From Rhodococcus jostii RHA1 (GTDB taxonomy: Bacteria; Actinomycetota; Actinomycetes; Mycobacteriales; Mycobacteriaceae): a stretch of DNA of 64,000 nt. Positions within the stretch are counted from its first letter, which is position 1. Every line of letters starts with the position of its first letter. The stretch lies in contig NC_008270.1 in the NCBI RefSeq assembly GCF_000014565.1, positions 378,537 to 442,536 on the forward strand, in the 5' to 3' direction. Position numbers and translations under genes: made by a program. Positions 13,745 through 38,659 of the stretch are shown here, one piece after another. The notes beneath the pieces are model-generated. The model did no database searches, was not told where the DNA came from, and saw nothing but the letters and a program-made list of their open reading frames with translations.

Positions 13745-14518
13745 TCAAGGCTCGATGGTTGTGCGCGCGCTCTCACCGTCGCTTCGTACGGTTACGGCGG
13801 TGCGGTCCGATCGGTACAACTCATGGGAGTACTCGAAGGGCCGCCCGCTATCGAGTTCGGTTGTTCGAGTGATGGATATCAGGGGTGCTCCCACTGACAC
13901 CTGAAGAAGTCCCGCGACCTCACGGCTCGCAGCAGCTGCTGCGATCGTTTCGATCGCTACTCCGCGATCGACGTCGTATCGGGTTTCCAGGATGTCGTAC
14001 AGCGATCCTCCCAGCGACTGTTCGAGTAGACCGGGGAAGAGGTCACAGGGAAAATGGGCCCGCTCGAGTACCAATGGTAATCCGTCGGCAAGACGGAGCC
14101 GCTCGATATGGAAAATCCACGTGTCCGCGTCCAGTGCGAGCTGCTTTGCGGATTCGTCGTCTGGGGGTCCAGCATGCGTCCCCAGAACTGTCGTACCGGT
14201 TTCGACTCCCTGAGCCTTCAGATACCGGGGTAGCCCGACGACAGGGGTTGAACGAACCAATTTTTTCGGAGCGACGAAAACTCCCCCATTTCGCCCGTGA
14301 GTTCGAAGGATCTCCTCCTGGTGCTCGAGGTGTTCGAGCGCCCTGCGGATGGCCCATCTGCTCACGCCGAGCGTCTGCGCGATCTCCCGCTCGGCACCGA
14401 TGCGGGCGCCCGGCCGCAAACCACGATCCGCGATGAAGGAACGTATGATCGTGGCGAGATCGTTGGCTGATCCCTGACGCGGAATCGGTAGAAGGACTTC
14501 ATCATACGTGTCGCGCAT
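13745..14518 (-). CDS. GntR-family (HutC/UTRA type) transcriptional regulator
   Basis: 257 residues. The N-terminal winged helix has the GntR pattern GARIGAEREIAQTLGVSRW followed by IRRALEHLEHQEEILRTHGR; the C-terminal UTRA-like ligand domain contains IFHIERLRLADGLPLVLERA. It is clearly paralogous to the regulator at 29215, sharing most of the segment from HTH to FPCDLFPGLL. ATG at 14518 is chosen by alignment with that paralogue: both have about 22 residues before the first helix. It lies inside the Pxp/biotin cluster and probably represses it until a pathway ligand binds. Confidence 0.9.
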   Translation of the reverse strand: MRDTYDEVLLPIPRQGSANDLATIIRSFIADRGLRPGARIGAEREIAQTLGVSRWAIRRALEHLEHQEEILRTHGRNGGVFVAPKKLVRSTPVVGLPRYLKAQGVETGTTVLGTHAGPPDDESAKQLALDADTWIFHIERLRLADGLPLVLERAHFPCDLFPGLLEQSLGGSLYDILETRYDVDRGVAIETIAAAAASREVAGLLQVSVGAPLISITRTTELDSGRPFEYSHELYRSDRTAVTVRSDGESARTTIEP

Positions 14519-14879
14519 AAGGTGCTCCCCCGGCCGAATCCAGTATTGTTCGTGTGATTGATTGAGTTTGTTGGTTTGACACGGGCGTGGTTCTCCTCGC
14601 TTCGAGGCCACGCGGCGCGGTCGCGCCCTGCGCCGCCCGGGCCATGGCGAGCCGGCCAGCCTACGAGGGGACCTGGTTCGCCGGCGAGGCGATTCGAGGT
14701 ATCGACGCGCGCCTGTCAATGGCAGGACTGCCCCGAGCAGGCGCGTGCCGACACATACCCGCAGCCCGTGTCTCTCGACATAGGCGTGGTGTGACTCGGC
14801 CAAATGGGCTTAGCTCTCTGGCGCAAACCGTCCGCGTGAGCTGGCCGCACTCATGATCCGACGAAGGGAATCGAGGCGA
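14519..14879. other. Intergenic region upstream of the GntR gene
   Basis: 361 bases separating GntR from PxpC. No convincing open frame or hairpin. Probably carries the GntR promoter. Confidence 0.4.
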
Positions 14880-15860
14880 CTATGAGGAAAGCGATTCACA
14901 GGCCCGGGCGATACGGTCTTGGCGTTCGTGCCGAGCGGACATCGCTTCCTCCAGCGAGACGGCGCGAAAGCGAACTCGGCCGTGAGTGGGCGCCTGTCCC
15001 AGCACGTCGAGGTCGGCCGTGATGACAGTGCCCACTGTGCAATATCCGCCGGCCGTCACGGCATCACGCGCCAGCACAATCGGCTCGGTCCCGCTCGGGA
15101 TCTGAATCGCCCCGATCGGATATCCCGCGTCGACGACGTTGGAAGGGTCACTTCCGGCGCCAAACGGTTGTTCGCGATGGACGAACTCCAAGGCCGAGCT
15201 GTTTTTGCAACTCAGTCGAATCCCCGTGCGATCCGCGTTGGGGGTGACCGCCCATTCGCGTTCTTCGAAGTCCCGCCGTCCTTCTTCGGTCAGTCGGTAG
15301 TTGAAGAGTCCGGGCACGTAGCGCAACGCAACGTCCTTCGCTCGCTGAGGGACGTGTTCGGCTGAGAGTTTCCGTACCGCGTGGAAGCCGGCATGTTCCG
15401 GCAGAAGGTGGAGGAGGTCGCCCGCGTGGAGCTTGCGGCCGTCGAATCCTCCGAAGCCGGAGTTGACGTGAGTCGAGCGGCTACCGAGAAATTCTGTAAC
15501 GTCGAATCCACCAGCGACGGCGATATACCCGCGGACACCTGTCTGAAGGAAGCCGAATGAGAGCACCTCTCCCGGCTGTACGTGATGCGATCGCCATGGC
15601 TCTACGGGATTGCCGTTGAGAAAGATCGGGATCTCGCCACCCGTGATCGCGACCGTTGCCGGAGCGGAGAATGACAGCTTCGGCCCCATGAAGGTGAACT
15701 CGAGGACCGCCGACCCAGGACGATTGTCGACTAGAGCATTCGCAAGGGTGTAGGACTCCATGTCCATTGCACCGGATGGCGGGATCCCCCGCCGATAATG
15801 ACCGGGTCGTCCCGCGTCTTGGACGGTTGTCATGAAGCCTGGTTCTTCCACGACGATCAT
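14880..15860 (-). CDS. pxpC: Biotin-dependent carboxyltransferase-family protein, PxpC/KipA-like
   Basis: 326 residues, full length. The N-terminal DAGRPGHYRRGIPPSGAMDM and the following ALVDNRPGSAVLE are diagnostic for the KipA/PxpC family, also found as the carboxyltransferase part of urea amidolyase. With PxpA and PxpB it forms ATP-dependent 5-oxoprolinase in well-studied bacteria. The start overlaps the PxpB stop (15857-15860, ATGA), so the two subunits are made together. The presence of biotin carboxylase and carrier genes in the same cluster favours a biotin-using variant. Confidence 0.9.
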   Translation of the reverse strand: MIVVEEPGFMTTVQDAGRPGHYRRGIPPSGAMDMESYTLANALVDNRPGSAVLEFTFMGPKLSFSAPATVAITGGEIPIFLNGNPVEPWRSHHVQPGEVLSFGFLQTGVRGYIAVAGGFDVTEFLGSRSTHVNSGFGGFDGRKLHAGDLLHLLPEHAGFHAVRKLSAEHVPQRAKDVALRYVPGLFNYRLTEEGRRDFEEREWAVTPNADRTGIRLSCKNSSALEFVHREQPFGAGSDPSNVVDAGYPIGAIQIPSGTEPIVLARDAVTAGGYCTVGTVITADLDVLGQAPTHGRVRFRAVSLEEAMSARHERQDRIARACESLSS

Positions 15861-16762
15861 TTGTATAGCACCTCGATCAGGTTCCGATTGTATTCGTCCG
15901 GGTCGGCGATGAGCTCCGCCGGCTCGAAACGAATGCGCTTTATCAGGTACCGGTAGGTCCCGTTACTCACCGCGCGACCGATCTCGTCATATTCGTCACG
16001 TGCGATTGGCCGGTAGTTGCAGATGGTTCCGAGCTGTACCAACTCTGTTCGATCACGAAAGTCGGGTAGTCGCTGAGCTGGATCGTAAACCGGAGCCGCT
16101 GCCCGGCCGAAGATTGGGTATCCGCCGACGCTCGGGGTTGGATAGATCGCGGGAAACGCTCCACCGAGTGCGAAGGCCCGATCAGGTGTCTCCGTTCGTG
16201 GCCGCAGATATTTCGGTCCCTGCAACTGACGCTTCTTAGGCACCATCTGATACGACCACACGATACCCGGCACAAACCCTGTCATCGACGCCAAAGAAGG
16301 TGTACTGGTGAGACTGTCGATGAAACCTTCCGTGTCCGCGAAGCCGTTGACGCGCGAGAGATACTCGAGGTCGGTCGAGTCGGGATCTTGAACGCGATCC
16401 CGGAACTTCATGAGCACTTCGTGCGTCCACGGATCGTTAAACAGCACCGGTATATCGACGATGCGGGTGTCGAAGGAGGCGAAACCTTTCGCGCGGGACC
16501 GTGCCTCGGCCTTCTTGAGATCGTTCACCAATACCGTGTACGAGATCACATCTGGGTCGTACCTGACGAGATAGGAAACATTGGCCGGACATACATCGAG
16601 AACTCCGTCGATACCACTGGACTCGACGTCCGTGACCACCCGCTGGACAAGAAGGTTTGTTTCCAGGCTCATCTCTTCGTCGAACTCGACGAGGACGAAT
16701 TCCTCAGCACCGGCTGAGTAGCGCGTCTCGAACAGGGTAGAGGTAGAGGAAAATTCGGACAT
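15857..16762 (-). CDS. pxpB: Allophanate hydrolase subunit 1-like protein, PxpB/KipI-like
   Basis: 301 residues. The end of the KipI domain is recognisable from GFVPGIVWSYQMVP, the PRTETPDRAFALGG stretch and AIYPTPSVGGYPIFGR, which replaces the usual IYP..SPGGW.LIG.T. It is divergent and longer than 220-residue PxpB proteins, with an extended C-terminus (residues 240-301) of unknown role. First gene of the cluster on this strand and overlapping PxpC. The divergence suggests a substrate other than 5-oxoproline. Confidence 0.82.
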   Translation of the reverse strand: MSEFSSTSTLFETRYSAGAEEFVLVEFDEEMSLETNLLVQRVVTDVESSGIDGVLDVCPANVSYLVRYDPDVISYTVLVNDLKKAEARSRAKGFASFDTRIVDIPVLFNDPWTHEVLMKFRDRVQDPDSTDLEYLSRVNGFADTEGFIDSLTSTPSLASMTGFVPGIVWSYQMVPKKRQLQGPKYLRPRTETPDRAFALGGAFPAIYPTPSVGGYPIFGRAAAPVYDPAQRLPDFRDRTELVQLGTICNYRPIARDEYDEIGRAVSNGTYRYLIKRIRFEPAELIADPDEYNRNLIEVLYK

Positions 16763-19226: not shown

Positions 19227-20462
19227 TCAGACGGCGACAAGGGCTGCGAACCCAATTAATAACGCCGGCACAGTAGTTAGTACGGTTGAGATGATCGCTG
19301 ACCGCCGATGAACGGCGAATAGCGGGAGCAGCCCGGCGCCGTCGTGACTGATCAGATAGGCCAGCAATGCTGGCAGAGGTAGACCACCGGATAGGAAGAG
19401 ACCGGCCACCACGACTTCCAGGCCGCAGGAGGGGAGAAGGCCGACGAGCGAGGCGACGATCACACCGAGAGCACCATGGAATGGAAGGACCGCAGGATCG
19501 AACCCGGTGACCTCGGTTACGGCTGCAGACACCAAGGTAACCAGACCCACCAAGACGATCATGAAGGACGCGCTGTACGCGGTGTGACGGAGCTGAACGA
19601 GTCGGGAAGACGCGTCGACGCAGTCACAGTCATGTTGGTGGCTGCGTCCACGCAGGAAAACTGCGCAGGCAACCGCGAATCCCACGAGACCCACCGCCAT
19701 ATACGAGTTCATGCCGAAGATTGTCGGAAACGCTTCCTCATCGATCAGATTGAACTCCACAGGGATTGCGAGCACGAATCCCACAGCGATAACGGACCAG
19801 AAGGCGATCAGGAAGCCATCGGGCCGGCCGGTCTCGGATTCCCCCGACCGAAGACCAGGCTCGACGCAACACGGCTCGGTTGTCTTCCACCAGCTTCGGA
19901 CTGGACCGGATACCGGTGGCGATGGAGGGGGAGCCGACATCGTTGGTCGTCGAGAGAGGAGTTGGAGGCTGTTGCTCGATTGCGCAGTATCGCGGGGACG
20001 GAGGGTCGTCACGACGGTGGTCAGTCCCCGCCGTGACACGTCGGTCGACAACTGTCGAGCTCGGGGTTCGATCCGTGCCCAGTCGACAAGACTGCCGCCC
20101 AGGGCGCCCACCACGAAAAACAGCGCTTTGAGTTCGAGCGCGAGCATCGGGTCAGCGGCCAGTAGAAGCCATGCCGAATCACCCATCGTGGCAAGCAGCG
20201 CGGCGATCACCGTTCCGTATGTCACTCGGCGTTGACCGTAGAGGGTGACAGTGGCGATGACTCCGCTGCATCCCGGGGGCAGCGACAAGGTCGCGGCGAG
20301 CAGAGGTCCACATTTCGGGTAGTGGAGCAACCATCCGTCCCATCGCGCTCCCCAGCGACCGCGGGCCCAGCCCATGACCGCAAGCATGAAAGCGACGAGA
20401 ACGCCGATACCGAGAAAGGCATCTACAAGAGGATCTCCGAGTGTCTCTAGCAGATCACCCAT
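19227..20462 (-). CDS. Putative 10-TM manganese/heavy-metal exporter (ArsP_2-like)
   Basis: 411 residues with about ten membrane helices and a hydrophilic central loop (about residues 140-210). Signature segments are SLPPGCSGVIATVTLYGQ, ALLATMGDSAWLLLA in the first half and LPSCGLEVVVAGLFLSGGLP, AYLISHDGAGLLPL in the second. These pseudo-repeats match the family called putative manganese transporter / 10TM heavy-metal exporter. ATG at 20462 overlaps the kinase stop codon (8 bases), indicating coupling; a TTG at 20480 is an alternative. Its role beside a microcompartment is not established; exporting or supplying a metal for the enzymes is possible. Confidence 0.75.
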   Translation of the reverse strand: MGDLLETLGDPLVDAFLGIGVLVAFMLAVMGWARGRWGARWDGWLLHYPKCGPLLAATLSLPPGCSGVIATVTLYGQRRVTYGTVIAALLATMGDSAWLLLAADPMLALELKALFFVVGALGGSLVDWARIEPRARQLSTDVSRRGLTTVVTTLRPRDTAQSSNSLQLLSRRPTMSAPPPSPPVSGPVRSWWKTTEPCCVEPGLRSGESETGRPDGFLIAFWSVIAVGFVLAIPVEFNLIDEEAFPTIFGMNSYMAVGLVGFAVACAVFLRGRSHQHDCDCVDASSRLVQLRHTAYSASFMIVLVGLVTLVSAAVTEVTGFDPAVLPFHGALGVIVASLVGLLPSCGLEVVVAGLFLSGGLPLPALLAYLISHDGAGLLPLFAVHRRSAIISTVLTTVPALLIGFAALVAV

Positions 20463-21519
20463 TGGAGCAACGCTCTTCAAGATCGTTGACGACCGAGGGA
20501 AGAGGATCCCGGCCCGCAGTGTTCCTCAATGAGTCGGCGTCGAAGGCGAACCACGTCGGATCGGTGAGGTAGCGCTGAGCGAGCGATGCCGTTTCGGCGG
20601 CGAGGTGGGGTCCGAGTGTTCGAGCGGGCTCCGATTCGGGGTGGGTGCCGATCCATGCGGTGATCATTAGGCGGCGGAGCATGATGAAAGTGGGAATTTC
20701 GGCAATTGCGGCATCATCGAGTTGACCGATGCTCAGGTAGCCGCGCAGCCACGTCTCCACGGTGGTACGGGCGGACGGGCTGGCCTCGTTCCAGGTGATC
20801 ACTGCGGCGAGGTCGGTCAGGAACCAGGACCATCCACAATCGTCGAAGTCGATGACGATGATCTCTCCGTCACGGACAATGAGGTTGGACATCCGAAGGT
20901 CGGAGTGCACCAGTCCGAACCGGTCCGCTCCGGTACCGAACCGGAGAAGCCGCTCTCTGACGGAACGTTCGGCAGTCTCGATCACCTCACGGTCTGATTG
21001 AGTCAGATTTGGTGCGTGACGCCAGTCTCCCCACCGACCGGTCTCTCCGAGCATCGAGTCGAGATCCCAGCGGAAGCGGACGAACTTTGCCGGAGGCGTC
21101 CATGCCTGCACATGCTGGTGCAACGACGCGGTGACGGCACCGAGATCGCTGAAGCTGATACCCGAAGCCGCATCTTCCGCGCTGATGCCCGGGATGAACT
21201 CGAAGACATCCACCAGTCGAGTCTCACCTGCGTGTTCAATCGCGACCACGCTGTTGCCATCGCCGGCGAGTCTGACCGCTGGAGTCCGGATGGACGAGTC
21301 CGAGCGCACGCTCTCCATCCACGCGAGCTCCGACTCCACCTCGGCGAGGCTGTTGTAGCCCGGCCGGTGGACGCGCACCACGGAACGCTCTCCGTCGAGT
21401 TCAGCCAGGTAGGTCGCGTTTTCCGAGTAGCTGAGCAACGTCAGGGATGCCCGTTCCAACCCATATTTTGGAAGCGACGCGCGGGCAAATGGTTCGTAAT
21501 CGGCAGCCGTCTCCGACAT
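20455..21519 (-). CDS. APH-family kinase, probable 1-amino-2-propanol kinase
   Basis: 354 residues of the aminoglycoside phosphotransferase fold. The catalytic loop HSDLRMSNLIV (Brenner motif, near residue 205) is followed by the metal-binding VIDFDDCGWSW. In RMM/aminoacetone microcompartment loci of Mycobacterium and Rhodococcus such a kinase phosphorylates 1-amino-2-propanol; the phosphate ester is then eliminated by the PLP enzyme. Its position, divergent from the aldehyde dehydrogenase of the shell operon, supports that role. ATG at 21519 has GAGGAGA upstream. No encapsulation tail is evident, so it may act outside the shell. Confidence 0.85.
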   Translation of the reverse strand: MSETAADYEPFARASLPKYGLERASLTLLSYSENATYLAELDGERSVVRVHRPGYNSLAEVESELAWMESVRSDSSIRTPAVRLAGDGNSVVAIEHAGETRLVDVFEFIPGISAEDAASGISFSDLGAVTASLHQHVQAWTPPAKFVRFRWDLDSMLGETGRWGDWRHAPNLTQSDREVIETAERSVRERLLRFGTGADRFGLVHSDLRMSNLIVRDGEIIVIDFDDCGWSWFLTDLAAVITWNEASPSARTTVETWLRGYLSIGQLDDAAIAEIPTFIMLRRLMITAWIGTHPESEPARTLGPHLAAETASLAQRYLTDPTWFAFDADSLRNTAGRDPLPSVVNDLEERCSNG

Positions 21520-21965: not shown

Positions 21966-23456
21966 GTGAGAACACCAGAATTCGACCGCTCGCCGGAGCT
22001 CGACACCGTGCTCGACCGGGCGCAAGTTGCGGCGACAGCGTTCGAGGCCTACGACCGATCTCAGGTCGACCGCATCGTGCGGGCGGTTGCGAACGTTGCA
22101 CTCCAGAACGCTCGACAGCTCGCCGAGAAGGCTGCGGACGAGACCGGGTTCGGTGTGGCCGAAGACAAAGTAGCGAAGAACGAAGCAGTCTCGTCCGGCT
22201 TCGTGCGTGAATACGGCGACCTGGATTTTGTCAGTCACCGTGCTGACAACGAAAAGAAACTGCTGCTCAGTCCCAAGCCGGCGGGAGTGATCTTCGCGGT
22301 CACACCCTCCACGAGCCCGGTCGCCAACCTGTACTTCAAGGTTCTTTCGTCGCTGTTGACCAGAAACGCCGTCGTCATCAGCCCCCATCCAGCCGCCGTG
22401 CAGACGAGCCTCGAGGCCGCCCAGCTCCTCAGTCGCGCCGCCACCGAGGCGGGCGCACCGGAGGGAGCAATCCAGATCCTGAACAAGCCATCGGTTCCAC
22501 TGATCGAAGCAGCGATGGGTGACGCGCGAGTGAACCTGATCCTCGCAACAGGAGGCTCGGCGGTCGTCCGAGCCGCATACCGATCCGGAACGCCCGCGAT
22601 CGGAGTGGGCCCCGGCAACGCTGCCGTGGTGGTCGATGAAACAGCAGACCTGGAGCGAGCGGCGGATCAGATCTCAGCGTCGAAGGCATTCGACAATTCA
22701 GTCCTCTGCACGGCGGAGTCGGTCCTCATCATGGTCGAGTCGATCGCCTCTCGAATGAATGAGTTGTTGGTCCGGCGGGGTGCACATCTGTGCCGGCCCG
22801 ATGAGACGCGACGGCTCCGCAACTACATGTACCCCAAAGGTAAATTCAACACCGAGGTCGTAGGAAGGCCCGCGCGCGAGATCGCGAAAAAAGCCGGGAT
22901 CACCGTTGCGGAGGGCACCCAACTATTGCTGGCTCCGATCGACAGCATCCGTGATGACGAGCCGCTCACCCATGAGAAGTTGAGCCCCGTACTGGCCGTG
23001 ATGACGGTTTCAAACTTCGACCAGGCATTGGCGGCGGCTGCCTCCCTCGTCGACATCGTCGGTGTCGGCCATTCGGCGGTCATCCACAGCGAGGACCCGC
23101 AGCACGTACTCGACTATTCCCACCGTCTCCCGGTTCACCGAGTTGCAGTGAACATCGGCGGAAGCCTGGGCAACGCGGGCATCGGCACCGGACTTCCACT
23201 CACGATGTCGATCGGGACAGGTTTCGCCGGAGGAAGCTCGCTCGGGGAAAATCTGGCGCCCGAACACCTGGTGCAGTGGAAGCGTGCGGCATATCCGGTG
23301 GGCGCCGTCTTCCCTCAGTTCGCGTCTCTGCAACCCACCCGAGGCGACCGGTCCGGTGTGTCTGGGGTTGGGTTGGGTGATGGTGCGGTGCGTGAGGAGT
23401 TGCGTCGTCTGATTGTCGAAGAGCTGCGCGGGCTGATTGGGCAGAATCATGGCTGA
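21966..23456 (+). CDS. Microcompartment aldehyde dehydrogenase with C-terminal encapsulation peptide
   Basis: 496 residues from GTG 21966. The fold is that of EutE/PduP-like acylating aldehyde dehydrogenases: VTPSTSPVANLYFK, GVGPGNAAVVVDE and the catalytic cysteine in FDNSVLCTAES (near residue 248). In the RMM pathway it would oxidise propionaldehyde, probably to propionyl-CoA. After residue 460 a linker leads to an amphipathic helix beginning GVGLGDGAVREEL, a typical encapsulation peptide for shell targeting. These codons lie within the 1,686-bp repeat, so the aminotransferase carries the same tail. The last 8 bases overlap the BMC-T start. Confidence 0.9.
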   Translation: MRTPEFDRSPELDTVLDRAQVAATAFEAYDRSQVDRIVRAVANVALQNARQLAEKAADETGFGVAEDKVAKNEAVSSGFVREYGDLDFVSHRADNEKKLLLSPKPAGVIFAVTPSTSPVANLYFKVLSSLLTRNAVVISPHPAAVQTSLEAAQLLSRAATEAGAPEGAIQILNKPSVPLIEAAMGDARVNLILATGGSAVVRAAYRSGTPAIGVGPGNAAVVVDETADLERAADQISASKAFDNSVLCTAESVLIMVESIASRMNELLVRRGAHLCRPDETRRLRNYMYPKGKFNTEVVGRPAREIAKKAGITVAEGTQLLLAPIDSIRDDEPLTHEKLSPVLAVMTVSNFDQALAAAASLVDIVGVGHSAVIHSEDPQHVLDYSHRLPVHRVAVNIGGSLGNAGIGTGLPLTMSIGTGFAGGSSLGENLAPEHLVQWKRAAYPVGAVFPQFASLQPTRGDRSGVSGVGLGDGAVREELRRLIVEELRGLIGQNHG

Positions 23457-24054
23457 TCTGCGGTCGTTCATTTTCATCGACAAGTTGCAGCCTCAGACGA
23501 TGTGTTATCTGGGCACCTTTGTTCGCGGTAGTTTGCCGCGGACGAATATGTCGGCGCAGGTGATCGAGATCGCTCCGGGGCTGGATATCGAGCCGTTGAC
23601 GGATGTTGCTCTGAAGCATGCGCAGGTCAGGGCTGGCATGTTGGTGGTGGAGCGGCAGTTCGGGTACCTCGAGATTCATTCGCGTTCGGCGGATGCTGTG
23701 CGGTTGGCGGCTGATGCGGTCCTCGATGCGTTGGGTGCTTCGGAGACCGAGGCGCGTCCACCGGAGGTGATCGCGTCGAAGATCATTTCCAATGTCGATG
23801 ACGAGCATGCTTTTTTGGTCAACCGCAACAAGTCCGGGTCGATGCTGCTGCCCGGTGATTCGTTGTTCGTGATGGAGATGCAGCCGGCGTCGTACGCGAT
23901 CCTGGCGACGAACGAAGCCGAGAAGGCCAGTCCGATCAAGGTCGTCGACTATCGCATGATGGGCGCCTCCGGGCGTGTCTATCTGGCCGGCGACGAGGAC
24001 GCGGTACGGACCGCGGCTGATGCCGCCGGGGCAGCGTTGGAGATGCGGCGATGA
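23449..24054 (+). CDS. BMC-T tandem-domain shell protein, copy 1
   Basis: 201 residues made of two BMC folds: about residues 1-95, with VRAGMLVVERQFGYLEIHS, and about 96-201, with SMLLPGDSLFVMEMQPASYA and KVVDYRMMGASGRVYLAG. Tandem BMC proteins form trimers that tile hexagonal shell facets, and some have gated pores. ATG at 23449 overlaps the aldehyde dehydrogenase stop; the longer TTG frame lacks a better ribosome site. A paralogue of different sequence is at 25045, and an identical copy is at 27342. Confidence 0.9.
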   Translation: MADLRSFIFIDKLQPQTMCYLGTFVRGSLPRTNMSAQVIEIAPGLDIEPLTDVALKHAQVRAGMLVVERQFGYLEIHSRSADAVRLAADAVLDALGASETEARPPEVIASKIISNVDDEHAFLVNRNKSGSMLLPGDSLFVMEMQPASYAILATNEAEKASPIKVVDYRMMGASGRVYLAGDEDAVRTAADAAGAALEMRR

Positions 24055-24488
24055 CATCGGCACCCGCGCTCGGGCTGCGCGCTCTGGTGCGTGAGCTGAT
24101 CAGCGAGATCATTCCCCAGCTGAACCTCCTGACTCGGCCCCAGCGGGTGGTGATCACCGACGACGAGCAGCTCAACGGCTTCGTCCGCCGGGTCGTCACG
24201 ACACTCGATGACCCGGTCACCGGGCCGTTGCTGCGTTCCGGGCAGCTTTGTTTCCAGCTCGACACCGCAGGCAACGGTGCGGCGGCCGTTTCGTCGCCCA
24301 CAGCACCTGCCGCCGAGGGGCAGGCGACCGACAGCATCGAGATCGACAAGGGGGTGTTGACCGAGCGCATCGTTGCCCGTGCCATCACCGAGCGGGCTCG
24401 GCTCGTTCTCGGCCGGACGGTGGTCATCACTCCGCTTGCCCGCGAACAGATCCGGAAATCGTCGGTCGAGGTGGTGCGGCGACCATGA
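24051..24488 (+). CDS. PduM-like microcompartment-associated protein, copy 1
   Basis: 145 residues, unknown family. The N-terminus (LRALVRELISEIIPQL) is an amphipathic helix; a low-complexity Ala/Pro/Ser linker spans residues 75-95; the C-terminus ends RARLVLGRTVVITPLAREQI and a short basic tail. That layout, especially the final strand-helix VVITPLAR, recalls PduM-type proteins of other microcompartments, needed for shell formation but of unknown activity. The resemblance is by pattern only. It overlaps BMC-T (ATGA) and BMC-P (ATGA), so it is made with the shell. Confidence 0.5.
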   Translation: MTSAPALGLRALVRELISEIIPQLNLLTRPQRVVITDDEQLNGFVRRVVTTLDDPVTGPLLRSGQLCFQLDTAGNGAAAVSSPTAPAAEGQATDSIEIDKGVLTERIVARAITERARLVLGRTVVITPLAREQIRKSSVEVVRRP

Positions 24489-24751
24489 TCAAAGCGACTG
24501 TCCTCGGCCCTGTATGGGCGACCAAGCGGCTCGACGGCTTTCCGTCCGGAGCGCTGCTCGAGGTGCAGCGAGATGAGACCGCCGAGCGTTACGTGGCCTT
24601 GGACCATCTCGGAAGCGGCCCGGGTGATCACGTGTTGGTCGCCCTCGGCAGCGCTGTAGCACACCACCTCCCCGGCAGCACCCCGGCCGATGCGCTCATC
24701 ATCGGAGTCATCGACCCCCCCGCGCCTTCAGCAACACCCAACCCACAATGA
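24485..24751 (+). CDS. BMC-P pentameric vertex protein (EutN/CcmL family), copy 1
   Basis: 88 residues. MIKATVLGPVWATKRLDGFP, LLEVQRD, YVALDHLGSGPGDHVLVALGSA and the C-terminal ADALIIGVID match the EutN/CcmL fold, whose pentamers cap the shell vertices. The ATG overlaps the preceding stop as ATGA. Twelve bases separate it from BMC-H. Confidence 0.92.
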   Translation: MIKATVLGPVWATKRLDGFPSGALLEVQRDETAERYVALDHLGSGPGDHVLVALGSAVAHHLPGSTPADALIIGVIDPPAPSATPNPQ

Positions 24752-24763
24752 AAGGTTCTTCCC

Positions 24764-25045
24764 ATGAGTGATGCAATCGGCATGATCGAAACCCGCGGCT
24801 ACGTCGCTTCCCTTGCGGCCGCCGACGCCATGGTCAAAGCGGCCAACGTCACCCTGATCGGTCGCGCAGAGGTCGGTGACGGACTCGTCGCCGTCATCAT
24901 CAACGGCGACGTCGGTGCCGTGAAGGCAGCCACCGAGGCAGGCTCGGAAACCGCCGCCACCATTGGTGAGCTCGTCTCCGTCCACGTCATCCCCCGACCC
25001 CACGCCGACCTCGGCAAGCACTTCACCGTCAACGGAAACCAGTAA
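24764..25045 (+). CDS. BMC-H hexameric shell protein, copy 1
   Basis: 93 residues, one canonical BMC domain: [51 protein letters not shown] and [11 protein letters not shown]. Hexamers make up most of the facets. AAAGGTTCTTCCC upstream is a moderate ribosome site. In this copy the stop overlaps the start of the second BMC-T (TAATG); in copy 2 the stop is followed by intergenic DNA. Confidence 0.95.
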
Positions 25046-25752
25046 TGTCGACACCAACTACTACGAAGCAGGCCGCCGCAACGAAGCGAAGCTCGGCCTC
25101 GTCCGCCGCACCCGATTCAGGCACACCGTCGACTGAACTGCGCGTCTACCTTCGAATCGAAGGACTCCAGCGCCAGTTTGCGGCCACGATGGCGACACCG
25201 ACCCGGGCCCGCGGCTACCCGCCGAAAGCGGGCGATCATTCGCTCATCGTCGAAGTTGCGCCTGCGTTGGCGATCCAGCGGGTGATCGACGCGGCGTTGA
25301 AAGCGACTCCCGAGGTCGAGCCGGGCCTTCTCTACGTGGAACGGCAATACGGCATCCTGGAGGTTCACAGCCCCAGCGCCGACGTCGTGGAACAGGCCGG
25401 GCAGGCGATCCTGAAGACCCTGAACGCGAAGGCGGAGGATCAACTCAAACCGAAAATCCTCTACAGCGACATCATCGAGGAAATCGGCGACCAGCACGCC
25501 GTCATCCTCAACCGCACCCGGGACGCGTCGATGCTGATGCCGGGTTCCGCTCTGCTGGTGTATGAGATGGCCCCGGCGCTATTCGCTGCCGTAGCAGCCA
25601 ACAGTGCCGAACGGGTAGCCCCGAACCTGACACTGGTGGACGTGCAAATGATCGGTGCAGCAGGACGTCTGTTCATCTCGGGTGATCTGAAGAGTGTCAC
25701 CATCGCGCGCGAGGAGATCACGAGAGTTCTCGAGGCGGTGATTGGACGATGA
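25045..25752 (+). CDS. Second BMC-T tandem-domain shell protein
   Basis: 235 residues. A Thr/Ser/Ala-rich N-terminal extension of about 33 residues precedes two BMC folds: first with GLLYVERQYGILEVHSPSAD, second with SMLMPGSALLVYEMAPALFA and VDVQMIGAAGRLFISGDLK. It is related to the BMC-T at 23449 but clearly different, and is present once. Two BMC-T types in one shell may provide different pores. The start overlaps the BMC-H stop; the stop lies just before the aminotransferase. Confidence 0.9.
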   Translation: MSTPTTTKQAAATKRSSASSAAPDSGTPSTELRVYLRIEGLQRQFAATMATPTRARGYPPKAGDHSLIVEVAPALAIQRVIDAALKATPEVEPGLLYVERQYGILEVHSPSADVVEQAGQAILKTLNAKAEDQLKPKILYSDIIEEIGDQHAVILNRTRDASMLMPGSALLVYEMAPALFAAVAANSAERVAPNLTLVDVQMIGAAGRLFISGDLKSVTIAREEITRVLEAVIGR

Positions 25753-25843
25753 CCTCACGCTCAGCCGTCCGACCAATACCCGAGGGTACGAGCGTCTCAC
25801 GACCGCCGTCGCCGCAGTCCCAACTGTGAAAGAAGACGATCCC

Positions 25844-27349
25844 ATGCAGCAAGATTCGATCGCCAAGCCGAAACTGACCGAGATTGTCGCGTTGAACACT
25901 CTCAACGCCGACAAACTTTCCTCGCTTGACAGCCAAACACGTGAGCTGGTTGAGCGTCGCCAGCGTGTCATGGGGCCCGCATACCGGTTGTCCTACGAGG
26001 AGCCGTTCCAACCGATTCGTGCACAAGGCACGAAAATCATCGATGTTTACGGCCACGAATACCTCGATGCGTACAACAACGTTGCCAGCGTCGGTCACAA
26101 CCATCCGCATGTCGTCGATGCTGTCTGCCGACAGCTTCGCCTGATGAACACGAACACCCGGTACCTGCAGCGCGACATCGTCGACTACGCCGAAAATCTC
26201 GTGAGTACACATGACAGCGCGTTGGACAACGTCATGTTCACTTGCACGGGGTCCGAGGCCAACGACCTCGCTGTGCGCATCGCACGGACGGTAACCGGCG
26301 GCACAGGTGTCATCGTCTCCGAGTACGCCTATCACGGGTGTACGCGGGACGTCGCGTCCTGGTCACCGTCGTCGGGCAAGGGCACCGTCCTCGGTTCGGA
26401 TGTACGGCTCGTGCCTCCTCCGGATACGTTCAGAGCGGATCGTGCCGAGGCCGAAACGAAGTTTTTGAGTAGCCTCCAGGCTCAGATCGATGACCTGAAC
26501 CGTCGAGGTGTGCAGTTGGCCGCCTTCGTCGTCGACAGCATGTTCTCTTCGGACGGGATCCACCCCGATCCCGGGGTGTTGAAGGCCGCGATCGAGTTGG
26601 TCCACCGGGCCGGCGGGCTCCTCATCAGTGACGAAGTGCAATCCGGATTCGGGCGCACCGGGGAAGCCATGTGGGGGTACCAGCGCAGCAACATCGTTGC
26701 CGACCTGGTCACCATGGGGAAGCCGATGGGCAATGGCATGCCCATCGGAGGGGTTGTGGCGAAAAGTGCTCTGCTGGAGAAATTTTCGCGAGAAACGGCA
26801 TACTTCAACACGTTCGGTGGCGAGAACGCACCGGTAGCAGCCGCGCAGGCCGTGCTGGAGGTAATTCGCGACGAAAACTTGATCGCCAATGCCCAGGACA
26901 AGGGCGGTCAATTGGTCGCCGGGATTCGGGAAATACTCACCCGCAATAACTTCGCGGCGGACGTTCGAGGAGCCGGTCTCTACATCGGAGTCGAGTTCGT
27001 GTCCGACTTCGACACGGCGATCCCGGACACCGAGACCACACTGGCATTCGTGAACGGACTTCGTCAGCACCGGGTCCTGACTAGCACGGCGGGGACCTAC
27101 GGAAACGTGATCAAGGTACGCCCGCCGCTAGTCCTGAGTCAGTCCGACACCGATCGACTGCTGACCGAATTCGACAACGTGGCGCGCGAATTGCGCCAAA
27201 GCGCCCGACCTACGCCCGAGACAACGACCGATTCACCCTCGGACCAGGATCCGTCTGGGGTTGGGTTGGGTGATGGTGCGGTGCGTGAGGAGTTGCGTCG
27301 TCTGATTGTCGAAGAGCTGCGCGGGCTGATTGGGCAGAATCATGGCTGA
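25844..27349 (+). CDS. Class III PLP aminotransferase/phospholyase with encapsulation peptide
   Basis: 501 residues from ATG 25844 (AGAAG upstream; a TTG at 25742 gives a longer form). Features: NNVASVGHNHPHVVDAV, the PLP-binding DEVQSGFGRTG and the Schiff-base lysine in TMGKPMGNGMP (near residue 293). Related enzymes act as ethanolamine-phosphate phospholyases; in RMM loci the homologue is proposed to turn 1-amino-2-propanol phosphate into propionaldehyde, ammonia and phosphate. The last 30 or so residues begin with the same GVGLGDGAVREEL tail as the aldehyde dehydrogenase, encoded by the second copy of the direct repeat, so it is probably packed in the shell. Confidence 0.9.
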   Translation: MQQDSIAKPKLTEIVALNTLNADKLSSLDSQTRELVERRQRVMGPAYRLSYEEPFQPIRAQGTKIIDVYGHEYLDAYNNVASVGHNHPHVVDAVCRQLRLMNTNTRYLQRDIVDYAENLVSTHDSALDNVMFTCTGSEANDLAVRIARTVTGGTGVIVSEYAYHGCTRDVASWSPSSGKGTVLGSDVRLVPPPDTFRADRAEAETKFLSSLQAQIDDLNRRGVQLAAFVVDSMFSSDGIHPDPGVLKAAIELVHRAGGLLISDEVQSGFGRTGEAMWGYQRSNIVADLVTMGKPMGNGMPIGGVVAKSALLEKFSRETAYFNTFGGENAPVAAAQAVLEVIRDENLIANAQDKGGQLVAGIREILTRNNFAADVRGAGLYIGVEFVSDFDTAIPDTETTLAFVNGLRQHRVLTSTAGTYGNVIKVRPPLVLSQSDTDRLLTEFDNVARELRQSARPTPETTTDSPSDQDPSGVGLGDGAVREELRRLIVEELRGLIGQNHG

Positions 27350-27947
27350 TCTGCGGTCGTTCATTTTCATCGACAAGTTGCAGCCTCAGACGATGTGTTA
27401 TCTGGGCACCTTTGTTCGCGGTAGTTTGCCGCGGACGAATATGTCGGCGCAGGTGATCGAGATCGCTCCGGGGCTGGATATCGAGCCGTTGACGGATGTT
27501 GCTCTGAAGCATGCGCAGGTCAGGGCTGGCATGTTGGTGGTGGAGCGGCAGTTCGGGTACCTCGAGATTCATTCGCGTTCGGCGGATGCTGTGCGGTTGG
27601 CGGCTGATGCGGTCCTCGATGCGTTGGGTGCTTCGGAGACCGAGGCGCGTCCACCGGAGGTGATCGCGTCGAAGATCATTTCCAATGTCGATGACGAGCA
27701 TGCTTTTTTGGTCAACCGCAACAAGTCCGGGTCGATGCTGCTGCCCGGTGATTCGTTGTTCGTGATGGAGATGCAGCCGGCGTCGTACGCGATCCTGGCG
27801 ACGAACGAAGCCGAGAAGGCCAGTCCGATCAAGGTCGTCGACTATCGCATGATGGGCGCCTCCGGGCGTGTCTATCTGGCCGGCGACGAGGACGCGGTAC
27901 GGACCGCGGCTGATGCCGCCGGGGCAGCGTTGGAGATGCGGCGATGA
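27342..27947 (+). CDS. BMC-T tandem-domain shell protein, copy 2
   Basis: Protein identical to the one at 23449-24054. Here the ATG overlaps the stop of the aminotransferase instead of the aldehyde dehydrogenase. Whether it is needed for dosage or simply a recent duplication cannot be told. Confidence 0.9.
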   Translation: MADLRSFIFIDKLQPQTMCYLGTFVRGSLPRTNMSAQVIEIAPGLDIEPLTDVALKHAQVRAGMLVVERQFGYLEIHSRSADAVRLAADAVLDALGASETEARPPEVIASKIISNVDDEHAFLVNRNKSGSMLLPGDSLFVMEMQPASYAILATNEAEKASPIKVVDYRMMGASGRVYLAGDEDAVRTAADAAGAALEMRR

Positions 27948-28381
27948 CATCGGCACCCGCGCTCGGGCTGCGCGCTCTGGTGCGTGAGCTGATCAGCGAG
28001 ATCATTCCCCAGCTGAACCTCCTGACTCGGCCCCAGCGGGTGGTGATCACCGACGACGAGCAGCTCAACGGCTTCGTCCGCCGGGTCGTCACGACACTCG
28101 ATGACCCGGTCACCGGGCCGTTGCTGCGTTCCGGGCAGCTTTGTTTCCAGCTCGACACCGCAGGCAACGGTGCGGCGGCCGTTTCGTCGCCCACAGCACC
28201 TGCCGCCGAGGGGCAGGCGACCGACAGCATCGAGATCGACAAGGGGGTGTTGACCGAGCGCATCGTTGCCCGTGCCATCACCGAGCGGGCTCGGCTCGTT
28301 CTCGGCCGGACGGTGGTCATCACTCCGCTTGCCCGCGAACAGATCCGGAAATCGTCGGTCGAGGTGGTGCGGCGACCATGA
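27944..28381 (+). CDS. PduM-like microcompartment-associated protein, copy 2
   Basis: Identical in sequence to 24051-24488 and in the same overlapping arrangement with BMC-T and BMC-P. See that entry for features; the functional assignment stays tentative. Confidence 0.5.
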   Translation: MTSAPALGLRALVRELISEIIPQLNLLTRPQRVVITDDEQLNGFVRRVVTTLDDPVTGPLLRSGQLCFQLDTAGNGAAAVSSPTAPAAEGQATDSIEIDKGVLTERIVARAITERARLVLGRTVVITPLAREQIRKSSVEVVRRP

Positions 28382-28644
28382 TCAAAGCGACTGTCCTCGG
28401 CCCTGTATGGGCGACCAAGCGGCTCGACGGCTTTCCGTCCGGAGCGCTGCTCGAGGTGCAGCGAGATGAGACCGCCGAGCGTTACGTGGCCTTGGACCAT
28501 CTCGGAAGCGGCCCGGGTGATCACGTGTTGGTCGCCCTCGGCAGCGCTGTAGCACACCACCTCCCCGGCAGCACCCCGGCCGATGCGCTCATCATCGGAG
28601 TCATCGACCCCCCCGCGCCTTCAGCAACACCCAACCCACAATGA
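28378..28644 (+). CDS. BMC-P pentameric vertex protein, copy 2
   Basis: Identical to 24485-24751 (EutN/CcmL fold). Only twelve pentamers close a shell, so a second identical gene would matter mainly for expression level. Confidence 0.92.
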   Translation: MIKATVLGPVWATKRLDGFPSGALLEVQRDETAERYVALDHLGSGPGDHVLVALGSAVAHHLPGSTPADALIIGVIDPPAPSATPNPQ

Positions 28645-28656
28645 AAGGTTCTTCCC

Positions 28657-28938
28657 ATGAGTGATGCAATCGGCATGATCGAAACCCGCGGCTACGTCGC
28701 TTCCCTTGCGGCCGCCGACGCCATGGTCAAAGCGGCCAACGTCACCCTGATCGGTCGCGCAGAGGTCGGTGACGGACTCGTCGCCGTCATCATCAACGGC
28801 GACGTCGGTGCCGTGAAGGCAGCCACCGAGGCAGGCTCGGAAACCGCCGCCACCATTGGTGAGCTCGTCTCCGTCCACGTCATCCCCCGACCCCACGCCG
28901 ACCTCGGCAAGCACTTCACCGTCAACGGAAACCAGTAA
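28657..28938 (+). CDS. BMC-H hexameric shell protein, copy 2
   Basis: Identical to 24764-25045. It is the last gene of the shell operon on this side; unique DNA begins one base after the stop codon, and the GntR gene follows 276 bases later. Confidence 0.95.
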
Positions 28939-29161
28939 CCACGAATGCGGTGATCGTCACCCGTGCAAGGGTTTGTGCTCGGAGCGACCGGCTCGTCGGC
29001 GCCCTCTTCCGGCGACGCCCAACCCAAAATCGCGCCAACCCGCGATGACTGTTGCCATGAGGGCATCGGGAGGGCAACGATTTTATCGGCGTGTGCCTCG
29101 GTCTTGTGACGTCGTCTGAGTCGAGGTCTGGTGAGCTCCATACCTGACCAATTGCTTCTCA

Positions 29162-29170
29162 GGCAACCAT
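29162..29170 (+). promoter_or_regulatory. GGCAACCAT site before the GntR gene
   Basis: The nonamer shared with the kinase/shell promoter region (21613, 21646) lies about 45 bases before the GntR start, a sensible place for autoregulation. Confidence 0.45.
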
Positions 29171-29214
29171 TTGATAGTTTCGGTGGAATACTGGCCGGGA
29201 GGAGGGTGCGTTCT

Positions 29215-29985
29215 ATGACTGAGGGTGACAAGAGCAAGGATCGAACACTCTCCACCGGCGGATCTACCGAGGAGATTGTCGGCTCCATACAATCCATAAT
29301 CACCGACCGCTCATTGGCGCCAGGTGATCGAATCGGAGCCGAACGGGAACTCGCGCAGAGCTTGGGGGTGAGTCGGTGGACCATTCGCAGGGCGCTCGAG
29401 CAACTCGAGTCCCAGGGACGGATTCTCCGGACTCACGGTCGCAGTGGGGGCATCTTCGTTGCACCGAAAAAGCTGATCCGCACGACACCGCTCGGGGGTC
29501 TACCCGTATATCTACGGGCGCAGGGAATTGATTCCGGGACAACGGTCCTAGGGACCCGTGCGGGGCCGCCCGACGATGAGATCGCAAAGCAGCTGGGGCT
29601 AGAGTCCGATGCCTGGGTCTTTCACATCGAGCGGCTTCGATTTGCGGGTGGGCTACCCCTCGTTCTGGAGACGACGGATTTGCCATGCGATCTCTTTCCA
29701 GGACTTCTCGATCAGCCACTCGGATCGCTGTACGAGATTCTCGATTCAAAGTATGACATCCGGCCAGAAGTGACCGTCGAAACGATCACAGCGACGACCG
29801 CTGAGCGTGAGGTTGCTGGACTGCTGCAGGTCGCCGTAGGGTCTGCTCTGATATTCGTCACCCGAACTGCAGAGCTCGGGAGTGGGCGGACGTTCGAATT
29901 TTCGAGAGAGCTGTGGCGAGCTGACCGGACGGCCATCACAGTACGCAGCGACGGGAAACCTGCGTACACGACCATCGACGCGTGA
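29215..29985 (+). CDS. GntR-family (HutC/UTRA type) regulator of the microcompartment locus
   Basis: 256 residues. Winged-helix block GDRIGAERELAQSLGVSRW with IRRALEQLESQGRILRTHGR, then a UTRA-like domain with VFHIERLRFAGGLPLVLE and PCDLFPGLLDQ. It is a close paralogue of the regulator at 13745-14518. ATG 29215 is chosen over the upstream GTG because GGAGGAGGG precedes it and the start then matches the paralogue. Position right after the shell genes and the GGCAACCAT site in its promoter suggest it controls this locus and itself. Confidence 0.9.
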   Translation: MTEGDKSKDRTLSTGGSTEEIVGSIQSIITDRSLAPGDRIGAERELAQSLGVSRWTIRRALEQLESQGRILRTHGRSGGIFVAPKKLIRTTPLGGLPVYLRAQGIDSGTTVLGTRAGPPDDEIAKQLGLESDAWVFHIERLRFAGGLPLVLETTDLPCDLFPGLLDQPLGSLYEILDSKYDIRPEVTVETITATTAEREVAGLLQVAVGSALIFVTRTAELGSGRTFEFSRELWRADRTAITVRSDGKPAYTTIDA

Positions 29986-31059: not shown

Positions 31060-31753
31060 TACCACCAGGACAGAGCAGTGGTAGTCGTATCCTCCTACCC
31101 GGGACCGACAATAATTCCCGATCCGACGTGGACAATCCCCGGCAATTGATCATCGCAGTCGAGCGTGGCCGACGTCAGAGGGGTCGGCCACAACGGTCGT
31201 GACTGTCTGGACATGCGAGATAGCAGGCTATCGGAACGCCACACAAGCAGCTAACCTCTAGAACCTAGGAGCCCGCTGCAACAACCAACCGGACGTTCAT
31301 CATCCCGGTGCTTCTTCGAAAAGGTTGCCCTGTCAATTCACGCGTCGATCGAATGAGACACGCGCTTCTTGGGTAGTTCCGCGGCCGTAGTCGTCTGGTT
31401 CCGAGCCGGCACGCTCCCTGAGCCAGTCTTCCACCAGAATCGTTCTACCAGTGTCCTGTGCTGAGCTTCCCGCATCGCGTGATCTGGGTCTGGAGTTGTT
31501 TATCTCCGCCAGGATGCTCCCCACGCCGGAACAAGACGTTCTGCGCAGGCGAGGGTCACCAAAACCAACAAATGGTTGCGCATGGTCGGCGTAATGGGCT
31601 ACCTTTTCGTGAGGCGCATCACATAGACCTGCTGAGGTTCAGTACCTGCCACCCACGAACTCCTTGACGCGGCATATTCGGCCCGCTCGGTATCGGGTGT
31701 CAATCCTGAAAAGACATGTCACACAGACGATTTTGGCAGTGGAGGAGAGAATT
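31060..31753. other. Intergenic region upstream of the permease
   Basis: 694 bases. ATGGTTGCG at about 31572 is an 8-of-9 match to the reversed GGCAACCAT motif. No gene supported; expected to hold the permease promoter. Confidence 0.45.
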
Positions 31754-33196
31754 TTGTCGCGCGACAACACGAAAGAGACCCATCTGGTCGGCGGTATAGA
31801 CGTACACGCGGAATCACAGGCGTACCTGCAGAAGCGCCAGCTCCGGAGCGGCACTGCTGGTTGGGTTCTACTGGCAGGACTCGGCGTGAGCTACGTGGTC
31901 TCGGGTGACTACTCCGGGTGGAACTTCGGCTTAGCCGAAGGAGGATTCGGCGGGTTGACGATTGCTGTCGTAATAATCGCGGCGATGTACCTGTGCCTGG
32001 TATTGGGAATGGCTGAGCTGTCCTCGGCTCTGCCCGCCGCGGGCGGTGGGTACACCTTCGCGCGCCGCGCACTGGGACCGTGGGGCGGATTCGCGACAGG
32101 CACGGCCATCCTGATCGAATACTCGATCGCGCCCGCGGCGATCGCAACATTCATCGGTGCCTACGTGGGTTCGCTGAATATCCTCGGGATCACCGACGGC
32201 TGGTGGCTCTACCTGGCTGTCTACGCGATCTTCATTGGGATCCACCTGTGCGGTGTGGGGGAGGCGCTCAAGGGCCTGTTCACCATCGCGGCGATCGCAC
32301 TTATCGGTTTGGTGATCTTCGTCATTGCCGCCATAGGGCGCTTTGATAGCGCCAACCTGGTTGACATCGCACCTGGCAGTGCCGCTGGAGCGTCGGATCT
32401 TCTTCCGTTCGGCTACCTCGGAATCTGGTCCGCGATCCCGTTCGCGATCTGGTTCTTTCTCGCGATCGAGGGAGTGCCGTTGGCTGCAGAGGAGACGGCG
32501 GACCCTCAGCGCAACGTCCCCCGTGGAATTATCGCTGCGATCAGCATTCTCATGGTCACCTGCGCGGCCGTCTTGATCCTCGCAACAGGCGCAGGGGGAG
32601 CGGCATCGATTTCCGAATCGGGGAACCCGCTTGTCGAAGCGCTCGGCGACACCACCGTGGCCAAGGTAGTCAATTACATCGGCTTGGCAGGATTGGTCGC
32701 CAGCTTCTTTTCGGTCATCTATGCCTACTCCCGCCAATTGTTCGCGCTCTCACGGGCGGGTTACTTACCCAAGGTGCTCTCGGTGACCAACTCACGAAAG
32801 GTCCCCACCCTCGCGTTGGTCGTTCCGGGAGTCGTCGGGTTCCTCTTGTCACTGACCGGCAAGGGCGCCCTCCTGCTGAACATGGCGGTGTGCGCAGCGG
32901 CAGTGAGTTACGTTTTGATCATGTTGAGCCACATCGTCCTTCGCCGCCGCGAACCGGAGATGCATCGTCCCTATCGGACTCCTGGAGGCAGCGTGACCAC
33001 TGGCTTCGCCCTCTGCGTTGCGGTCATCGCTGTCGTCGGCACGTTCCTGGTGGATGTGGTCGCGGCGTTGTGTTGCCTGGGTGTCTTCGTGATCTTCCTG
33101 TTGTACTTCGCGTTGTTTAGCCGCCATCGTCTCGTCGCCAACTCCCCTGATGAGGAGTTCGCCGCGCTGGCGCAGGCTCAGGAGGACCTTCGATGA
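31754..33196 (+). CDS. APC-superfamily amino acid/ethanolamine-type permease
   Basis: 480 residues with about 12 membrane helices. LGVSYVVSGDYSGWNFGL and LSSALPAAGGGYTFARRALG at the N-terminus match ethanolamine transporters of the APC superfamily. TTG 31754 is selected because GGAGG lies nine bases upstream. RMM loci often carry such a permease, expected to import 1-amino-2-propanol or aminoacetone-like amines for the kinase. Substrate inferred from context only. Confidence 0.87.
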   Translation: MSRDNTKETHLVGGIDVHAESQAYLQKRQLRSGTAGWVLLAGLGVSYVVSGDYSGWNFGLAEGGFGGLTIAVVIIAAMYLCLVLGMAELSSALPAAGGGYTFARRALGPWGGFATGTAILIEYSIAPAAIATFIGAYVGSLNILGITDGWWLYLAVYAIFIGIHLCGVGEALKGLFTIAAIALIGLVIFVIAAIGRFDSANLVDIAPGSAAGASDLLPFGYLGIWSAIPFAIWFFLAIEGVPLAAEETADPQRNVPRGIIAAISILMVTCAAVLILATGAGGAASISESGNPLVEALGDTTVAKVVNYIGLAGLVASFFSVIYAYSRQLFALSRAGYLPKVLSVTNSRKVPTLALVVPGVVGFLLSLTGKGALLLNMAVCAAAVSYVLIMLSHIVLRRREPEMHRPYRTPGGSVTTGFALCVAVIAVVGTFLVDVVAALCCLGVFVIFLLYFALFSRHRLVANSPDEEFAALAQAQEDLR

Positions 33197-37224: not shown

Positions 37225-37366
37225 CCGCAAAGTATAAGCACGACTATGAGCGTCTCCAACTAATCATAGCTGGACTTTTGATTCAGAGACGCTCAGCATT
37301 AAGTCCGAACGCGATGACGCAAATCTCATCGCACACCTGACAATTCGGCAATTGGAGGCCCTACCT

Positions 37367-38602: not shown

Positions 38603-38659
38603 CGAAACTACAGCAACAACATTAACCGTGGTTACTGCATTAGAAGTCGAGGTCGCAGA

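Follow-up and report, generated by a model that had tools for sequence, protein, structure and literature searches.

The window analysed here is a stretch of 64,000 nucleotides from Rhodococcus jostii RHA1 (contig NC_008270.1, positions 378,537 to 442,536 of the forward strand), and it contains what is, by its sequence, a bacterial microcompartment (BMC) locus of the RMM type in which a segment with shell genes occurs twice. RMM-type shell genes for BMC-T, BMC-H and BMC-P proteins are present (best PDB matches 5l39, 5suh and 5l37, second best 5l38), as are the companion genes for a phosphotransferase, an aldehyde dehydrogenase (ALDH), a GntR regulator and a permease; RMM1 is described with a phosphotransferase, a permease and a GntR regulator in the available part of PMC4207490. 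No short-chain dehydrogenase, the amino-2-propanol enzyme expected of an RMM locus, was found among 30 further open reading frames (ORFs) scanned, a subset of those in the window.

Compared base by base and free of gaps, the two copies of this segment are identical at 1,686 of 1,686 positions, as the original prediction had supposed, and the identity breaks at the first outside base on the left and on the right. Chance is excluded as its source. A genome-wide search (9,702,737 bases, four contigs) found exactly two copies, and within the window the repeat finder returned two further families of direct repeats, with 77% and 80% identity. Each copy encodes BMC-T1, a conserved RMM protein, BMC-P and BMC-H. 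The three shell assignments, made earlier from the letters only, agree with Pfam/NCBIfam and PDB matches; the label ‘PduM-like’ for the fourth protein finds no support there, as it matched no family in Pfam and NCBIfam searches. BMC-T2 and a class-III aminotransferase of phospholyase type, dependent on pyridoxal phosphate (PLP), lie between the copies and are unique, as predicted.

The repeat is more than a shell cassette. Its first 97 bp form the 3′ end of the ALDH gene in copy A and the 3′ end of the aminotransferase gene in copy B; on the right it closes with the BMC-H stop codon. Since the repeat opens inside two enzyme genes, ALDH and aminotransferase share one C-terminal tail. Both left junctions are in-frame fusions of enzyme body to tail and were seen again in independent data, in the ALDH P0241 (97%) and the aminotransferase P0001 (98%). 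The ATG of BMC-T1 overlaps the end of the upstream enzyme gene by 8 nt. The contig of the locus measures 442,536 bp, and the window reaches its end; the other contigs of the 9.70 Mb assembly measure 7.80, 1.12 and 0.33 Mb. A plasmid collection searched over the locus gave no match, and the BMC-T1 protein search returned four records, all below 60% identity.

Table 1 Features of the locus, with positions in the window
Feature	Position	Strand	Evidence or remark
APH-family kinase	20455..21519	-	Pfam APH, E=1.7e-24; nearest PDB chain 6ef6 (which we take to be the M. smegmatis RMM amino-2-propanol kinase), E=3.2e-71; divergent
Aldehyde dehydrogenase, nearest CoA-acylating types, putative C-terminal tag	21966..23456	+	Pfam Aldedh; AdhE- and EutE-type NCBIfam matches below family cut-offs; ORF open from 21891, start placed by 496-aa relative P0241
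Repeat copy A	23360..25045	+	1686/1686 identical to copy B
G/T-rich third-codon-position block	23360..23910, same letters 27253..27803	+	starts at repeat start
Encapsulation-peptide-like tail of ALDH, SGVGLGDGAVREELRRLIVEELRGLIGQNHG	23361..23456	+	translation; profile of relatives' ALDH tails, E=3.4e-8
G-run motif GGGGTTGGGTTGGGTGATGG	23364..23383, again 27257..27276	+	motif scan; at left end of both repeat copies
BMC-T1 copy A	23449..24054	+	PDB 5l39 MSM0275, E=2.7e-86
Conserved RMM protein copy A (formerly ‘PduM-like’)	24051..24488	+	adjoins T1 in most relatives
BMC-P copy A	24485..24751	+	Pfam EutN_CcmL; PDB 5l37 MSM0273
BMC-H copy A	24764..25045	+	Pfam BMC; PDB 5l38 MSM0272 ranks second, behind a tandem-fusion design
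BMC-T2, unique	25045..25752	+	PDB 5suh MSM0271, E=4.4e-89
Class-III PLP enzyme, predicted phospholyase type, putative C-terminal tag	25844..27349	+	PDB 5g4i phospholyase, E=2.4e-94; ORF open from 25742, start placed by relative P0001
Repeat copy B	27253..28938	+	1686/1686 identical to copy A
Encapsulation-peptide-like tail of phospholyase	27254..27349	+	identical to ALDH tail
BMC-T1 copy B	27342..27947	+	identical to copy A
Conserved RMM protein copy B	27944..28381	+	identical to copy A
BMC-P copy B	28378..28644	+	identical to copy A
BMC-H copy B	28657..28938	+	identical to copy A
GntR/UTRA regulator	29131..29985	+	homologue also 3′ of second BMC-H in Gordonia sp. PP30
Amine permease	31664..33196	+	TIGR00908 ethanolamine permease, 503 bits vs cut-off 382

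The shared tail and the locus in relatives

The common tail comprises 31 residues, a linker followed by a helix, and the repeat starts 6-7 residues ahead of the helix. Encapsulation peptides are terminal extensions that a flexible linker joins to the cargo, and are described as having an amphipathic helix of about 15-20 residues (PMC8217296, in the part available); by this resemblance, the tail may serve as an encapsulation-peptide-like tag of cargo enzymes. A profile built from the ALDH tails of relatives, with the window and Gordonia sp. PP30 left out, matches the ALDH and the aminotransferase of the window and both PP30 enzymes, as well as 14 of the best 120 of 7,962 aminotransferase homologues (E<=0.0044); usual RMM-type aminotransferases gave no significant score (best E=0.59). 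The aminotransferase tail of Mycobacterium sp. MS1601 was missed by the profile and found by direct comparison with the window tail. In the predicted model of the aminotransferase a disordered linker (456-476) leads into a 20-residue helix (477-496), with block pLDDT values of 50, 86 and 75.

The comparison set comprised 79 loci from 74 assemblies, collected by a named-genome scan (55 loci) and by family- and genus-level searches. The expectation that RMM loci usually carry one shell set is borne out: BMC-T1 was single in the fetched stretch of 79/79 loci (matches above 55% identity), with the limits that five loci (L028, L050, L065, L066 and L071) end before the rest of the cassette, that distant second copies are invisible for the named loci and that an exact repeat may go unseen in short-read assemblies. 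A weak second match to BMC-H turned up in one locus (L033), and one to BMC-P in another (L119). One cassette per locus is the rule in the examined relatives, not a published criterion, and the window breaks this rule with two exact copies. In nearly all relatives the tag of ALDH lies immediately ahead of T1 or runs into it, with gaps of -8 to +29 bases; L076 was unreadable in frame, and L024 and L069 are without an ALDH.

The exception is Gordonia sp. PP30, with the order ALDH plus tag, BMC-H1, T2, aminotransferase plus tag, T1, conserved protein, BMC-P, BMC-H2 and GntR. Both ends of the cassette (tag and BMC-H) are thus found at both positions, and its middle (T1, conserved protein and BMC-P) at one. 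The tag-T1 unit behind the PP30 phospholyase looks derived from an ALDH, because the ALDH tag adjoins T1 in nearly all relatives. BMC-H1 and BMC-H2 of PP30 are identical at 276/282 positions and in 27 further upstream bases, and each is 71-72% identical to BMC-H of the window; in the BMC-H tree the copies pair within each genome, with 100% bootstrap for the PP30 pair. A class search (E<=1e-150) found the window-type aminotransferase in 2/394 genomes, the window's own genome and PP30, and in the genus of PP30 9/59 genomes matched at E<=1e-120, all except PP30 with at most 52% identity. Searches for further genomes with it returned 0/186 (E<=1e-130) and 0/396 (E<=1e-150), and in the genus of Mycobacterium sp. 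MS1601 3/396 genomes matched, in none of which a T1 cassette lies directly 3′ of the aminotransferase. The RMM locus of MS1601 itself (L119) has two class-III PLP genes on either side of a permease gene, one phospholyase-like with a tag-like tail and one of the usual kind; immediately 3′ of the phospholyase-like gene there is a short match to BMC-P (44%, 40 residues).

The tails of ALDH and aminotransferase from the same genome match at 31/31 residues in the window, 38/40 in Arthrobacter sp. OAP107 and 34/34 in the lineage of contig 94577. Between these three, the ALDH tails are identical at 24, 25 and 23 of 30 residues, the enzyme bodies of OAP107 and contig 94577 are 76-85% identical to those of the window, and T1 of the contig 94577 lineage is 94% identical to window T1. 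Four genomes had their enzymes paired on grounds other than the tails; among the 24 permutations for these, the assignment of tails to their own genome came out best. Larger permutations ranked this assignment at 1/120 for five genomes, with P0246/P0005 included, and at 2/720 for six, with P0241/P0001 in addition; neither was counted as an independent pair, since P0246/P0005 was matched by the tails (a circular choice) and P0241/P0001 by the identity of the enzyme bodies to those of the window. In three control genomes ALDH and aminotransferase both end in tag-like tails, and these gave 8/14, 13/27 and 14/34; the controls are MS1601, known from DNA and with the aminotransferase not ahead of T1, and two contigs known from proteins alone. 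The left end of the tail identity varies between genomes (31, 37 and 34 residues with at most one mismatch), which fits separate conversion events. Paralogues are closer within a genome than between genomes, as in concerted evolution, for BMC-H DNA in 2/2 genomes and for the tails in 3/4.

Origin of the two cassettes

We regard an old duplication of a module, followed by recurrent gene conversion that carried the cargo tag along, as the likely history of the locus. A module of encapsulation tag, BMC-T1, conserved protein, BMC-P and BMC-H would have been duplicated before several actinobacterial lineages split or exchanged the locus, and the second copy would have come to lie in frame behind the phospholyase, so that both enzymes would bear the same tag. 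The two copies would then repeatedly overwrite each other by homologous recombination (gene conversion), with the effect that, genome by genome, shell genes and cargo tags would evolve together; in PP30 the first copy would have lost its middle. The arrangement appears old and its identity renewed, because the tails match on the same enzymes in OAP107 and another lineage and because PP30 has the ends of the cassette at both positions. Gene conversion, the age of the duplication and a full second cassette in OAP107 and the contig 94577 lineage are what we infer from these patterns.

The original prediction left the choice between a recent duplication and ongoing gene conversion, of which the latter is plausible and the former less likely, given the tails of OAP107 and of another lineage and the layout of PP30. 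It had also held that an identical layout in many distant genomes would speak for an old, conserved duplication; judged from the same three lineages, the layout is at least partly old. That recombination between the copies could loop out the segment with BMC-T2 and the aminotransferase is a reasonable prediction, and no looped-out derivative was seen among the loci examined.

A simple tandem duplication was dismissed as the origin in a single step, since BMC-T2 and the aminotransferase would then be duplicated too. A recent single event of another kind is unlikely, though more probable than the remaining alternatives: an ancestor with the order ALDH-tag-H1-T2-aminotransferase-tag-T1-conserved protein-P-H2, as in PP30, may have recombined once where its tags and its BMC-H genes are homologous, the downstream tag-T1-conserved protein-P-H2 taking the place of the upstream tag-H1, with other lineages doing likewise independently. 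The zero differences between the copies would follow readily, and the repeat is bounded by the tag and by the end of BMC-H, the very segments that PP30 has at both positions. However, the event would have had to happen several times over, independently and at one and the same pair of positions (in the window, OAP107 and contig 94577), PP30 itself looks like a reduced form of a locus with two cassettes around a unique segment, and P0241 and P0001, from near relatives not shown to be one strain, already have both tails, identical to those of the window at 30/30 and 29/30 residues. That a single cassette was written twice in assembly is very improbable. Exact repeats can be artefacts and this one is known from the assembled sequence alone, but the junctions of ALDH and of aminotransferase with the tail occur in separate data sets (P0241 and P0001), relatives also have H next to T2 and H next to GntR, the assembly is in four contigs and both left ends are fused in frame. 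Less credible still is a likeness of the tails through selection for one tag per shell without DNA exchange. Both enzymes would presumably need the same shell, which such selection would exploit; the identity, however, spans synonymous sites over 1,686 bp, which largely refutes it at the DNA level for the window, and neither the tails of the three control genomes nor those of PP30 match.

Several observations weigh against an old duplication with recurrent conversion of a cargo tag. The PP30 tails have diverged (13/20) and PP30 has a single T1, conserved protein and BMC-P; an ancestor of the PP30 type is also possible. With four pairs, 1/24 is the smallest p that the permutation can give. Some enzymes of the clade, the ALDHs P0243 and P0245 and the aminotransferase P0004, found no partner, OAP107 and contig 94577 are known from proteins alone, with the enzymes of contig 94577 joined by their equal longest-contig size, and DNA of the arrangement comes from two genomes, the window and PP30. 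As to the tag, the predicted ALDH model has an unstructured linker and then a helix (473-492) with pLDDT below 50, and the hydrophobic moment of the tail is not above that of shuffled sequences, 31% of which reach its value.

Strand-asymmetric synonymous sites

The repeat also has an unusual composition at third codon positions. The maximum-likelihood G/T-rich block in ALDH plus T1 spans 23357-23910, with a G/T share of 0.80 inside and 0.44 outside; it starts within one codon of the repeat start and covers the tag and most of T1. A step from 0.40 to 0.80 is found at the start of copy B as well. The 5′ part of T1 reaches 0.76 in the window, against a mean of 0.48 and a maximum of 0.61 in 73 relatives. 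For BMC-H, 69 matches in relatives have a mean of 0.43 and a maximum of 0.64, the PP30 copies have 0.83 and 0.85, and the window is low at 0.25 (minimum of relatives 0.21). At residues that window and PP30 share but encode by different codons, counted with window keto (G or T) first, the ratio is 35:5 in T1 codons 1-130, a split picked after the profile had been seen, and 0:47 in BMC-H. It is near balance in the rest of T1 (12:8), ALDH (58:61), T2 (37:38), BMC-P (12:11) and the conserved protein (14:11), and 76:54 in the aminotransferase (p=0.065). The asymmetry falls in homogenised tracts of both genomes but in different genes (23360-23910 and 27253-27803 in the window; BMC-H1 and BMC-H2 in PP30). 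In a survey of 685 gene-like ORFs, cut into 8,355 segments of 130 codons, the top six belong to the two T1 copies; the set includes false antisense ORFs, one of them opposite window BMC-H, and misses PP30 BMC-H. With segments of 80 codons, ORFs of two other loci (L014 and L012) also reach 0.78.

Candidate causes are import of foreign DNA, a recombination-linked process with a strand bias, and selection on the mRNA. That the homogenised tracts came from a donor whose codon usage is unusual, and were then copied to both positions, is a real possibility that we hold at somewhat below even: the boundary at the repeat start is sharp and the affected genes differ between the two genomes, as independent imports would have it, yet no examined relative has such usage, either among the 73 T1 5′ parts or among the 69 BMC-H matches. 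Deamination of single-stranded DNA alone was rejected as the source of the keto bias for PP30, where the gains of G exceed the supply of A. The G-run at the left end of both copies was considered as a site of G4-linked gene conversion like that of Neisseria pilE, to the extent that the available part of its description allows, and was not adopted; the scan finds no such motif in the converted tract of PP30.

A NucS domain is present in 3/3 genomes (the window genome, PP30 and MS1601) and a MutS_V domain was found in 0/3 of them by a search that was positive in 11/14 control genomes. NucS prefers G-T, G-G and T-T mismatches (PMC8228993, in the part available), which would make heteroduplex outcomes dependent on the strand. 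Mismatch repair by NucS is thus a candidate cause of the asymmetry, in a hypothesis framed after the data had been seen. A wider proposal, which we think improbable as a whole, is that of a portable shell-plus-tag module that makes cargo of any enzyme behind whose gene it is pasted in frame, because the tag at the 5′ end of the cassette overlaps the first shell gene. Conversion would keep the tags identical and, being strand-biased, would write the keto/amino signature at third positions, possibly through NucS cutting heteroduplexes with keto bases on both strands, so that the opposite kind would survive. The strand-asymmetric sites in two genera may be a readable footprint of recombination in NucS bacteria without detected MutS. 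Neither this composition nor the tag-like tail of the two enzymes nor the phospholyase type figured in the original prediction.

Proposed pathway and known systems

The ‘aminotransferase’ of the window is nearest by sequence to the phospholyases 5g4i and 6tor. Its predicted fold is best matched by 5g4i at 40% identity and by 6tor at 37-38%, and other class-III enzymes among the 50 fold matches listed have 22-29%. To the usual RMM aminotransferase of relatives it is 22-30% identical, except for Leucobacter L015 at 53%. Sequence and predicted fold thus point to a PLP enzyme of the phospholyase type. Published RMM schemes have the usual aminotransferase and leave the pathway open, in the available parts of PMC4207490 and PMC6620236.

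The probable function of the locus is a route from kinase through phospholyase to ALDH. The APH kinase would phosphorylate an amino alcohol (ethanolamine or 1-amino-2-propanol) with ATP, the tagged phospholyase would free the aldehyde inside the shell by elimination, and the tagged ALDH would convert it to acyl-CoA. The second cassette may double the dosage of the shell genes, and the 8-nt gene overlap may couple each cargo to shell synthesis.

Other genes of the window lie apart from this locus. Two genes with DUF4379 treble-clef zinc-finger domains (46382-48121 and 51057-52940) share 77-80% DNA identity over part of their length. A carboxyltransferase (CT_A_B, CT_C_D) and a biotin carboxylase (13745-16762 and 6217-7665), close to genes for a GntR/UTRA regulator and a cyclase-family protein, look like an amide- or urea-type catabolic cluster, and at 37352-39502 a gene for a creatinase/prolidase-type M24 peptidase adjoins a creatininase-family gene.

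A literature search for microcompartments, carboxysomes or encapsulation peptides in connection with gene conversion or concerted evolution gave nothing on point among the matches listed; the word stem ‘duplicat’ is absent from the available parts of PMC8217296 and PMC6620236, and ‘gene duplication’ from that of PMC4207490. If the proposed history is true, the locus would offer an example from nature of two organelle enzymes that have one address label in common and have it refreshed through exchange of DNA. It would show the recruitment of a new enzyme by a microcompartment in one step, with a bearing on the evolution and engineering of such organelles.

Among known systems, the RMM or aminoacetone (Aut) compartment of Mycobacterium smegmatis (MSM0271-0275) and Rhodococcus has shell proteins, phosphotransferase, permease and GntR regulator like those of the window, whereas the window has the shell cassette twice and, instead of the usual aminotransferase, a PLP enzyme predicted to be of the phospholyase type. 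With the PLP phospholyases A1RDF1 of Arthrobacter aurescens (5g4i) and human ETNPPL (6tor) this enzyme shares the predicted fold and 37-40% identity; unlike them, it has a C-terminal tail and sits in a microcompartment operon. The locus of Gordonia sp. PP30 has the same genes, in an order that agrees from BMC-H to GntR (with T2, phospholyase, tag and T1 on the way), but its T1, conserved protein and BMC-P are single, the tails of its ALDH and phospholyase differ and only its BMC-H copies are near identical. As in concerted evolution by gene conversion generally, the paralogues are more alike within than between genomes.

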